Positions 55,858 to 59,290 of a stretch of DNA of 64,000 nucleotides are shown here, in pieces. Below the pieces are notes generated by a model that did not search any database, had not been told where the DNA came from, and saw only the letters and a list, made by a program, of their open reading frames with translations. Source of the stretch: an uncultured bacterium (lineage in GTDB: Bacteria > Cyanobacteriota > Vampirovibrionia > Gastranaerophilales > Gastranaerophilaceae); assembly GCA_902760645.1 (NCBI GenBank), contig CACWHC010000001.1, positions 186,001 to 250,000 of the forward strand, read 5' to 3'. The position numbers and the translations under genes are program-made. Position 1 is the stretch's first letter; every line of letters begins with the position of its first letter.

Positions 55858-56586
55858 TTAACCTGCGATTAGTTCTTTTACTTCGGCAGCAAATACTTTA
55901 GGATCCAATTTAATGCCGGGACCCATAGTAGTTGCAAGGTAAACAGACTTAACGAATGTACCTTTTGCAGAAGAAGGTTTTGCTCTTAAAATTGCATCAG
56001 CCAAGGTCGCATAGTTTTTAATCAGGTCTTCTTCGCTGAATTCTGCTTTACCGATAGGGCAGTGAATCATACCCTGTTTATCGGCACGGAATTCAACTTT
56101 ACCTGCTTTAGCATCTTTAACGGCTTTTGCTACATCCATTGTAACGGTACCTGTTTTAGGGTTAGGCATTAAACCTTTAGGTCCGAGAACTCTACCGAGT
56201 TTACCCAACATACCCATACAATCAGGAGTTGCAATCAATGTATCAAATTCAAACCAACCGCCTTCAATTTTTTCAATAATATCTTCAGCACCTGCAAAAT
56301 CAGCACCTGCATCTTTTGCCTCAGTAGCTTTAGCACCTTTAGCGATTACACAAACTCTTACAGTCTTACCTAATCCGGCCGGAAGGACAACTGTTGAACG
56401 AATTTGCTGGTCTGCCTGTCTGACATCAATACCTAATCTCATGTGGCATTCAACTGTTTCATTGAACTTTGACAATTCTTTAGATATTTCTTTTAATTTT
56501 TTAATAGAATCAACTGCAGTAGCCGGTTGAGTGAAATCAGCCAACATTTCCTGCATTTTCTTTTGTTTTTTAGTTAATTTTGCCAT
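55858..56586 (-). CDS. rplA: 50S ribosomal protein L1
   Basis: Forms the L1 stalk and often represses its own operon by binding the m[20 protein letters not shown] starts the protein; [60 protein letters not shown] and [15 protein letters not shown] are diagnostic. I use the ATG at 56586 with GAAAGG upstream; the frame extends to 56610 without better support. 242 residues. Last gene of the operon. Confidence 0.97.
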
Positions 56587-56638
56587 TTTAAATTTTCCTT
56601 TCGTGGTCATAACGTGCTTTTTATTGCACTTCCATCAA

Positions 56639-57064
56639 TTAATCTTTTACTGTAACACCCATAGCTCTGCAAGAACCTGCAATCATCTTAACTGCTGCAT
56701 CCATGGTGGTTGCATTCAGGTCATTCATTTTGATTTTTGCAATTTCTTCTAACTGAGCACGAGTAATTTCAGCTACTTTGTCTTTATTAGGAACAGCAGA
56801 TCCCTTAGGGATATTCAACGCTTTCTTAATCAAAACCGGAGCCGGTGGTGATTTGATAACGAATGAAAAACTTCTGTCTTCATAAACATCAATAATAACA
56901 GGAATAATATAACCTGCCTGAGATTCTGTTTTAGCATTAAATTGCTTACAGAAATCCATGATGTTTACACCATGCTGACCCAAAGCCGGACCAACCGGAG
57001 GTGAAGGATTTGCTTTTCCTGCTTCAATCTGAAGCTTAATTTTTCCTACTACTTTTTTAGCCAT
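56639..57064 (-). CDS. rplK: 50S ribosomal protein L11
   Basis: Part of the GTPase-associated centre. [41 protein letters not shown] is the family start; [20 protein letters not shown] and the final [17 protein letters not shown] also match. 141 residues. AAAAGGAG precedes the ATG. A candidate L1-binding hairpin lies immediately upstream. Confidence 0.98.
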
Positions 57065-57156: not shown

Positions 57157-57795
57157 TTATAGTTTATTAATCTGCTTATATTCCAATTCTACCGGAGTTT
57201 CACGACCGAAGATTGAAACATTTGCACGAAGTTTAGACTTATCAGGGTAAACTTCAATAATATCCGCAATAAAGTCTGCGAACGGACCTGAAACGATTCT
57301 GACCTTATCACCTGCTTTAACATCAAGTTCAATTTTCTGAGTTTGAGAAGATGAGCGGTGAAGAATCTTTTTAATTTCACTTTCTCTTGCAGGGATAGGA
57401 CGTTTAGCAGAACCTACAAACTTCGTAACACCTGCAGTGTGTCTTACAACATACCAGCTGTCTTCGTCCATAATCATTTCAACGAGAACATAGCCCGGGA
57501 ATATTTTTTCTTCACGTTCCTGCTTTTTACCGCCTTTAATCTGGGTAACGGTTTTTTGAGGGACTTCAATACGGAAGATTTTTTCACCCATATTCATATA
57601 TTCAATACGTTTTTCCAAGTTAACTTTAACCTTGTTTTCGTGTCCTGAATAAGTGTGAACGATATACCAGCGTTTTTCGCTATTTTTAGCTTTTTTCGCT
57701 TCGTCCTGAGCTTTCGCTTCTTCTTCGGCTGCTTGTTGTTCAGCCAATTTGTCTTCGTTCAGTTCTTCTTCCATTGATTTTTGTTTCTTTGCCAT
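57157..57795 (-). CDS. nusG: transcription termination/antitermination factor
   Basis: Binds RNA polymerase and couples it to ribosome or Rho. The first 40 residues are a highly charged Glu/Ala/Lys tail not found in short NusG proteins. The NGN domain starts RWYIVHTYSGHENKVKVNLEKRI (about 42-64), with IFPGYVLVEM and WYVVRHTAGVTKFVG, and the KOW domain is KAGDKVRIVSGPFADF near 158-173. 212 residues. AAAGGTGG precedes the ATG. Between secE and rplK, the usual order. Confidence 0.97.
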   Translation of the reverse strand: MAKKQKSMEEELNEDKLAEQQAAEEEAKAQDEAKKAKNSEKRWYIVHTYSGHENKVKVNLEKRIEYMNMGEKIFRIEVPQKTVTQIKGGKKQEREEKIFPGYVLVEMIMDEDSWYVVRHTAGVTKFVGSAKRPIPARESEIKKILHRSSSQTQKIELDVKAGDKVRIVSGPFADFIADIIEVYPDKSKLRANVSIFGRETPVELEYKQINKL

Positions 57796-57836: not shown

Positions 57837-58040
57837 TTACTTTATAAAGCCTAACAAAGCTTTAAAGATAATGTCCATAAAATATACAGCAACAGTAAAT
57901 GCCGAAACGATAACAATTACAAATAACGTTTCCATCATAACCTGATGTCTTTCAGGCCAGGTAATCTTACCCCATTCGGCACGAACACCTTTGAAGTATT
58001 TTTTCATTGAATCTAAAAATGCGTTAAATGAATTATCCAT
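57837..58040 (-). CDS. secE: preprotein translocase subunit SecE
   Basis: Essential small subunit of the SecYEG channel. I use the ATG at 58040 (67 residues), preceded by AAAAGGA; the frame to 58097 runs into the tRNA gene. The conserved amphipathic part FKGVRAEWGKITWPERHQVMMETL is followed by one membrane segment VIVIVSAFTVAVYFMDIIFKALL. A single-span SecE is normal outside enterobacteria. nusG follows after 41 bp. Confidence 0.95.
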   Translation of the reverse strand: MDNSFNAFLDSMKKYFKGVRAEWGKITWPERHQVMMETLFVIVIVSAFTVAVYFMDIIFKALLGFIK

Positions 58041-58067: not shown

Positions 58068-58140
58068 CGCGCCCTGAAGGACTCGAACCCTCGACATCCG
58101 GTTTTGGAGACCGACGTTCTACCAACTGAACTAAGGACGC
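58068..58140 (-). tRNA. tRNA-Trp (anticodon CCA)
   Basis: A 73-nt cloverleaf on the minus strand. The acceptor GCGTCCT pairs with AGGGCGC (one G-T) and the discriminator is G. The anticodon loop CTCCAAA sits in a GTCGGT/ACCGGA-type stem, and the T arm reads GAGGGTTCGAGTCCTTC. The 3' CCA is not encoded. Located between rpmG and secE, a conserved bacterial order. Confidence 0.96.
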
Positions 58141-58220: not shown

Positions 58221-58388
58221 CTACTTAGTTTCCTTGTGGTTGGTATGTTTCTTGCAAGTTGGGCAATATTTGCTCAATTCAAGTCTGTCTTTAATATTTT
58301 TCTTGTTTTTTACTGTTGTATAGTTTCTTTCTTTGCAATCTTCACAAGCAAGAACTACCATTCTGTCATTTTTACCTTTGATACCCAT
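58221..58388 (-). CDS. rpmG: 50S ribosomal protein L33
   Basis: A 55-residue large-subunit protein. It reads [20 protein letters not shown], then [20 protein letters not shown] and [18 protein letters not shown] and CPTC form a complete zinc ribbon, so this is the zinc-dependent form. AAAAGGAAG precedes the ATG. First gene of rpmG-tRNA-secE-nusG-rplK-rplA, behind a long structured leader. Confidence 0.95.
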
Positions 58389-58431
58389 TTTATTCTTCCT
58401 TTTTGTTTTGTTGTATCCAGTTTTGTCCTTT

Positions 58432-58547
58432 ATAAGCCGTTTCGCCGTTTATATTTTATTTTTTTAGTGTTTCCGGTGTATTCCGGGCTCGCTTTTCGCT
58501 TTTTAAGAGAGAATGTGGGACATCACATTCTTCATTTATCGGCTTAT
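58432..58547 (-). promoter_or_regulatory. structured 5' leader RNA of the rpmG operon
   Basis: The region from the promoter to rpmG (about 160 nt) has no ORF. ATAAGCCG (58540-58547) pairs perfectly with CGGCTTAT (58432-58439) across 100 nt. Enclosed are a perfect 7-bp hairpin GAATGTG/CACATTC (58511-58530) and CCGG/CCGG (58473-58486). I recognise no known riboswitch. Confidence 0.5.
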
Positions 58548-58556
58548 GGTATCTAT

Positions 58557-58584
58557 GTTATAACAAAAAATTTTAAAAATCAAA
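58557..58584 (-). promoter_or_regulatory. promoter of the rpmG operon
   Basis: TGT-TATAAC on the minus strand (-10 at 58557-58562) with TTTGAT 16 bp upstream. Confidence 0.5.
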
Positions 58585-58645
58585 TGTTTGTAAACTAATG
58601 ATAAGATTCTTATATTCTGAAATCAAATAAATCCCTTATGACAAT

Positions 58646-58681
58646 AAAAAGCACCTGTTCATAGCTGAACAGGTGCTTTTT
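58646..58681 (-). terminator. terminator of the coaD-downstream gene pair
   Basis: A perfect 16-bp stem starting AAAAAGCACCTGTTCA with loop TAGC, T-rich on both outer sides. It follows the 197-residue coiled-coil gene. Confidence 0.9.
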
Positions 58682-58696
58682 GTATTTTTAGACCTT

Positions 58697-59290
58697 TTAT
58701 TTCATCACAAAATCAGGAGTTTTGTTTGTATCATAATAGGATGATGCAGAACCTGCAGTATTTCTCTGCTGTTCCAAGTATACCTGATTACTTTTTACAA
58801 CCTGCTGTAACTTATTCAGACCTGTTTCAATATCAGTAAGAATTTGCTCTGCATAAATTTCTGCACCTTCTTTTTTCCTTTGTGCATCTTCTGCAGCCTG
58901 AGAACGAATAATATCAGCTTCTTCAAGAGCTTTTCTCTTTAATTCTTCACATTCTTCCTGAACCTGATTTCTGATTCTGATACCTTCTCTTTCAACAGCC
59001 TTAATAAAATCAGCCTCGCTTAATTTTCTTTCAGCTTCCATCTGAGCATCAGTAATAATTTTTTCAGCTTTTTGCTGAGCCTCTAACTGCAACTCCTCAC
59101 GGCGTTTCAAAAATGCTCTTGCTTCCTGCACTTCCACCGGTAAAGTCGCATATATTCTTTCAATTAATGTATATATTTCTTCGGGTTTAACAACTACAAA
59201 CTTATTAGGTATAATTGTAAAACCATCCTCAATCGCCAATTCCAATAACTTTAATAAATCAAATACTCCACTTTGTTGCATGTCTATCAC
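58697..59290 (-). CDS. coiled-coil protein, DivIVA/F0 subunit b-like
   Basis: A 197-residue protein with a short N-terminal globular part (VFDLLKLLELAIEDGFTIIP, KPEEIYTLIERIYATLP; 1-60) and a long charged coiled coil (about 62-175, AQQKAEKIITDAQMEAERKL), ending in a Ser/Tyr/Thr tail. It resembles coiled-coil proteins annotated as ATP synthase b-like or DivIVA-like beside coaD in cyanobacteria, but has no membrane anchor. The GTG at 59290 has AGAAAGG 8 nt upstream; an ATG at 59281 is too far. The next gene upstream carries two copies of its N-terminal module. Confidence 0.65.
   Translation of the reverse strand: MIDMQQSGVFDLLKLLELAIEDGFTIIPNKFVVVKPEEIYTLIERIYATLPVEVQEARAFLKRREELQLEAQQKAEKIITDAQMEAERKLSEADFIKAVEREGIRIRNQVQEECEELKRKALEEADIIRSQAAEDAQRKKEGAEIYAEQILTDIETGLNKLQQVVKSNQVYLEQQRNTAGSASSYYDTNKTPDFVMK

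Follow-up and report, generated by a model that had tools for sequence, protein, structure and literature searches.

The operon that carries nusG in this uncultured member of the Gastranaerophilales begins with a leader for which a structured RNA in one closed, multi-branched fold had been predicted, and it raises the question which part of that fold is conserved and what the conserved part might do. The locus lies on the minus strand of the window, by which we mean the whole stretch of 64,000 nucleotides that was analysed, in a genome of 1.96 Mb in 29 contigs. The NusG of the window has a 100% match in the rumen bin RUG12268, and many other near matches are Candidatus Gastranaerophilales. The predicted gene order was confirmed on the minus strand: rpmG (bL33; 58221-58388), the first gene of the operon, is followed by tRNA-Trp (CCA; 58068-58140), secE (57837-58040), nusG (57157-57795), rplK (uL11; 56639-57064) and rplA (uL1; 55858-56610), where secE, with its start taken at MDNSF, rplK and rplA were assigned by inspection. 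A Shine-Dalgarno-like AGGAAG (58395-58400, minus strand) can be read from the sequence before rpmG and, as predicted, the leader contains no ORF of at least 30 amino acids on this strand. nusG was found downstream of rpmG in all 30 loci examined, and tRNA-Trp in 15 of 15. A strong 18-bp inverted repeat that resembles a terminator (58644-58683) separates the upstream gene (58697-59290) from the rpmG promoter.

The pairings on which the large fold was built exist. The minus strand carries AUAAGCCG at 58547-58540 and its full complement CGGCUUAU at 58439-58432, which gives an 8-bp pairing over 100 nt, and enclosed by it are a hairpin with the arms AGAAUGUG and CACAUUCU and a CCGG/CCGG pair (58486-58483 with 58476-58473). 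Folding of the minus strand yielded -27.9 kcal/mol, while dinucleotide shuffles averaged -18.3 (sd 2.8), which gives a z of -3.45 with none of 200 as good; as the plus strand reached a nearly equal z of -3.49, the energy cannot distinguish between the strands. The original prediction had made the fold depend on compensatory changes among relatives. For the 8-bp stem none were found within the genus: CGGCUUAU occurs in 4 of 12 genus leaders, with identical letters each time. The CCGG/CCGG pair was present in the window alone among these 12. In 76 leaders of the family that bear GCCG, the downstream pairing was better than in shuffles at p<=0.05 in 7 (about 4 expected) and at p<=0.01 in 5 (about 0.8 expected). 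These genus and family counts indicate that the long stem is real in a few lineages and not family-wide; as a conserved feature it was rejected, and it is an add-on of those lineages.

If the closed fold were a riboswitch-like switch, the long stem would be part of the working structure. This would fit with its perfect pairing in the window, which none of 200 shuffles equalled, with its retention in three close relatives and with an independent 9-bp version in another genus, where the 5' end of the leader of genome G014 (L054; TACAAGCCG) pairs with the downstream leader in other letters. However, the stem is missing from 8 of the 12 genus leaders and from most of the 76 family leaders, no compensatory change supports it within the genus, and the fold has no match in Rfam, which makes this explanation extremely improbable. 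At the gathering score the tRNA alone was detected in the window and no family matched the hairpin. A permissive scan of 58350-58720 returned 32 matches, none of which reached the cut-off; 31 begin at position 58576 or higher and mostly cover the terminator at 58644-58683, and the remaining one is a match to a microRNA (E 7.2). The statement that the leader matches no known riboswitch thus held in the Rfam scan, and we observed nothing in the leader sequences that would point to ligand binding.

The conserved part of the leader is, unlike the larger fold, the small hairpin just after the predicted promoter. Hence the prediction of a structured leader stands as a conserved RNA element, consisting of a single hairpin at the 5' end and a U-rich stretch, and falls with respect to the one closed, multi-branched fold. 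In the window the hairpin AGAAUGUG-AUGUCC-CACAUUCU spans 58510-58531 of the minus strand, with the arms 58531-58524 and 58517-58510 and a loop of 6 nt, and the tail CUCUUAAAAAGC that follows it (58498-58509) is a weak local form of the U-rich stretch. rpmG was located in 182 of 191 genomes of the family. We read 130 leaders, 30 from the loci of an rpmG search and 100 from fetched regions; the window's family accounts for 122 of them, of which 121 were usable, L073 being excluded with only 14 nt of leader. The hairpin was anchored by script in 117 of the 121, and in two of the other four (L059, L087, L095, L108) variants are visible by eye (L059, L095). For anchoring as well as for T counts, the register table and fold z values, the choice of hairpins was guided by complementarity and by stem motifs from a list. 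The hairpin segment folded with a median z of -4.23, below -2 in 113 of 117 anchored family leaders and at -3.04 in the window, so that it is as stable as an intrinsic terminator or attenuator requires.

In the main clade (52 aligned leaders) the layout is AUAAGCCGA, with its first four letters variable, then 1-11 nt, AGAAUGUG, the loop and CACAUUCU, usually followed by a base, UUUUAAA and AG. The loop length varies from 3 to 13 nt over 123 anchored leaders. Other clades have the stem variants AGAAUGUCC/GGACAUUCU, AGAAUA/UAUUCU, AGAACGC/GCGUUCU and AGAAUG/CAUUCU. In two leaders (L098, L113) an AGAAUGU arm is partly repeated 5' of the hairpin, which could permit an alternative pairing.

For this small hairpin, the compensatory changes that were absent from the long stem were found. 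In the 52 main-clade leaders 92.4% of the cells were paired, a figure that is partly by construction because the hairpins were chosen by complementarity, and neither any of 500 shuffles nor any slid version reached the covariation score. Changes on both sides occurred in only two pairs, since most letters of the core are invariant, and RNAalifold gave 7 pairs, one of them with both-sided changes. Two further measures, the number of pairs changed on both sides and that of additional pair types, were not above shuffles in these 52 leaders. Over all clades, pairs were exchanged at register 1 from G-C to A-U (5 of 115 leaders), at register 2 from A-U to G-C (6 of 115), at register 5 from G-C to A-U (9 of 115) and at register 7 from G-C to C-G (16 of 102); this table omits L092 and L110, and its leader sequences are related.

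The element is tied to one operon. A search of the window's genome for the exact hairpin pattern gave a single site. A covariance model matched strongly (E below 1e-6) in 20 of the 57 relatives, each time at the rpmG leader (15 placed by coordinates, plus G007, G316 and three more), and all 20 lie within the 34 relatives of the window's family; genera with other stem letters escape the model. Nineteen weaker matches that were fetched resemble ordinary terminators after genes, or chance, and one (L163) lies before rplF. A regulon, or a second copy at another operon, was thus not seen with either the exact pattern or the covariance model. When the model was run on 71 of 80 named loci (9 with shorter upstream parts were omitted), each of the 71 gave one sense-strand match, 504-817 nt before nusG and with the rpmG start 15-102 nt downstream, where many of the genomes overlap the model's training set. 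Another 52 antisense matches were the same hairpins.

The hairpin probably lies at the very beginning of the transcript. The predicted promoter (58555-58583, minus strand) consists of a -35-like TTGATT (58583-58578), 17 nt and a -10-like TAACAT (58560-58555). The latter was chosen from the alignment and the spacing in relatives and lies 7 nt from AUAAGCCG; the script had chosen TATAAC (58562-58557), which is 9 nt away. In 50 of 76 leaders the best -10 match is spaced exactly 6 nt from AUAAGCCG, and this spacing puts the predicted start of transcription at the first A of AUAAGCCG, position 58547, within one or two bases. The transcript would then begin with the conserved bases AUAAGCCGA (58539-58547). 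Position 58547 is also the first base of the 8-bp stem; a start downstream of the stem, which would have spoken against the original prediction, is therefore not what the spacing predicts. The GCCGA of this segment is invariant in all 52 aligned leaders and has no evident pairing partner in most of them. The promoter stretch itself (58555-58605) is T-rich and unusually conserved across the family; its commonest -35 is TTTGCA, and TTTTGTTTG stands before the -10.

Most leaders of the family have a U-rich tail behind the stem. Counting T over the 9 nt that follow the GC-closed stem gave 5 or more in 97 of 117 leaders of the family as compared with 2.8% of windows further downstream, an enrichment that is partly due to pairing because the T run often mirrors an A run before the stem. 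The other 20 leaders have fewer than 5 T; in the window, where the GC-closed stem has -6.9 kcal/mol, there are 4.

A hairpin at the same place was also found in a second order, that of genome G206, where a search for rpmG was positive in 36 of 37 genomes. Among 30 loci the start of rpmG could be read in 28 (in L182 and L198 the wrong ORF had been picked), and in all 28 a hairpin comes shortly after the -10 box. Twenty-six of these leaders, one of them a duplicate, are from family f3 and mostly show GCCUC-loop-GAGGC and a T run; two from family f8 have a longer AU-rich hairpin. After two leaders with a longer hairpin (L191, L194) and one duplicate (L196) had been left out, 25 f3 leaders were aligned. 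Their 5-bp stem was paired in 94.4% of the cells, which is again partly by construction because the hairpin pattern was built from stem starts seen beforehand. The covariation score was matched by none of 500 shuffles, and ten cells were changed on both sides, as reached by 3 of 500. The T run is conserved in the 25, and in most of the 28 readable leaders the hairpin with its T run looks like an intrinsic terminator. Judged from the alignments, the hairpins of the two orders share place and architecture and have nothing evident in common in their letters.

A terminator scan of 26 promoters of the second order found a site in 23 and none in L185, L188 and L191. The best site was this hairpin in 17, and another site scored better in 6 (L180, L189, L193, L194, L196, L202). 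Of 20 shuffles per promoter, 7 were as good in the case of L180 and no more than 1 in any other. In several leaders, among them L177, L178 and L179, a further small hairpin of the CUGG...CCAG type directly follows the T run. Beyond these two orders the pattern turns up sporadically. Among other families an imperfect version is visible by eye in L115 (f2) and none in L122 (f4). Counterparts in Cyanobacteriia were sought in 20 nusG upstream regions from other branches of the phylum, in 6 of which the script named an rpmG, once spuriously (L206); a terminator-like hairpin near the promoter was present in 2 (L209, L210) of the 5 rpmG leaders.

A possible interpretation, which we favour tentatively and give somewhat less than an even chance, is that the element is a promoter-proximal transcription pause or attenuation hairpin of the rpmG-trnW-secE-nusG-rplKA operon. 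It builds on the observed position, conservation and co-variation of the hairpin, the U-rich tail in most relatives and the terminator-like form in the second order; from these we infer the start site, the pausing or release and the regulation. RNA polymerase would initiate at AUAAGCCGA and pause, and some complexes would release a short RNA, so that the fraction reading through would set the output of rpmG, trnW, secE, nusG, rplK and rplA. With only about 16 nt upstream of the hairpin in the window, there is no obvious space for an antiterminator; control should therefore act on the hairpin or on the elongation complex. The favoured effector would be NusG itself, together with NusA, which would result in negative feedback; the assignment of this role to NusG is plausible but speculative, and in our estimate unlikely. 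In line with a brake of this kind, none of 20 relatives, all from the window's order, gave a hit for the RNA-binding domain of Rho in a search that was positive in 9 of 14 control genomes. Against the interpretation count the weak U tract of the window, the other family leaders with fewer than 5 T, the second-order promoters for which the terminator scan preferred another site or gave none, and the scattered occurrence beyond the two orders. The stem is also more constant in its letters than a terminator would demand, and this could point to a binding protein.

Such a protein could be a product of the operon other than NusG. In an autogenous ribosomal-protein leader, L33, L11 or L1 would bind the hairpin and the unpaired GCCGA and repress its own operon. 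The leader indeed belongs to a ribosomal-protein operon, and nearly invariant stem letters next to an invariant single-stranded GCCGA (52 aligned leaders) are what a protein site would have. An RNA structure in the 5' UTR of such an operon is also what the element has in common with the 20 candidate ribosomal-protein leaders of PMC7247131, as far as excerpts of that paper describe them; its main text does not mention nusG, rplK or L33, and rpmG appears there only in a reference. However, no mimicry of E. coli rRNA by the full element was seen: matches to 16S and 23S rRNA were not significant, with 57 to 194 of 200 shuffled queries scoring as high. The 8-nt 5' arm alone has an exact match in E. 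coli 16S rRNA, where 5 of 200 shuffled queries scored as high. Moreover, a quite different hairpin sequence stands before the same genes in the second order, and L1 sites, according to the part of the review PMC10931766 that deals with them, precede rplK or rplA, with rplA as the gene concerned in Cyanobacteria. We therefore consider a ribosomal-protein leader rather unlikely.

This difference in sequence would be no obstacle if the stem-loop simply stabilised the mRNA, shielding the operon transcript from decay at its extreme 5' end and regulating nothing, as a structural demand alone permits different sequences in each order. The stem also begins near the predicted 5' end in both. On the other hand, the U-rich stretch, the invariant stem letters of the main clade and the conserved T run of the second order would be left unexplained, and a mere stabiliser is in our view a minor possibility. 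It is also conceivable that the inverted repeat acts as DNA, i.e. as an operator bound by a protein in the initially transcribed region. The repeat is near-perfect, its letters are conserved and it overlaps the start region, but with a gap between the half-sites that varies as widely as the loop, from 3 to 13 nt in the 123 anchored leaders, an operator is very improbable.

For a pause or attenuation hairpin before nusG, the closest published analogue is the rimP-leader. Excerpts of PMC2965389 describe it as a conserved terminator before rimP-nusA-infB with conserved stem letters and no antiterminator, for which NusA was proposed as the effector. Like the rimP-leader (RF01770), the present element is a short hairpin of terminator-like form that keeps its stem letters and lies in the 5' UTR of an operon for a Nus elongation factor, has no visible antiterminator and occurs once per operon. 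It differs from it in the operon (nusG instead of nusA), in the letters (AGAAUGUG or GCCUC instead of GGGc...gCCC) and in lying right where the transcript is predicted to begin. It is not a member of that family: it stands before rpmG-secE-nusG, has other letters and gave no match above the cut-off at the hairpin. The Rfam model reached 24 bits, where its cut-off is 47, with a match (58625-58714) that lies over the separate terminator at 58644-58683 and not over the hairpin.

In B.subtilis, NusA is autoregulated by attenuation, as stated in an excerpt of PMC12288461, and NusG-dependent terminators have weak A-U or G-U pairs at the stem base and distal interruptions of the U tract, as stated in an excerpt of PMC8060035. 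Compared with that description of the NusA- and NusG-dependent terminators, the alignments show the same weak A-U stem base and interrupted U tract in most Gastranaerophilales leaders. Unlike there, termination is putative here, and the exact NusG motif TTNTTT of the non-template strand is present in only 23 of 117 leaders (12.3 expected, a mild excess) and not exactly in the tail of the window.

In the open PMC literature we found no paper on a leader hairpin of a nusG operon. A wider reading, speculative and in our estimate unlikely, would be that two orders of non-photosynthetic relatives of cyanobacteria have a leader family not yet catalogued, by which NusG brakes its own operon in that it strengthens a pause or terminator at the start of the transcript. 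This would be the NusG counterpart of the NusA loop at the rimP-leader, arisen or remodelled with quite different sequences in each order. If true, it would be a compact feedback circuit for a universal elongation factor, with Rho undetected, beside the known NusA circuit. The element has no Rfam family and could become one. The NusG proteins of all 30 loci have the residues R-H-T, of which we take H-T to be at the same position as N-T in the B.subtilis protein, a difference that counts against the interpretation as a pause or attenuation hairpin under NusG. That B.subtilis NusG has N-T is given in an excerpt of PMC12288461.
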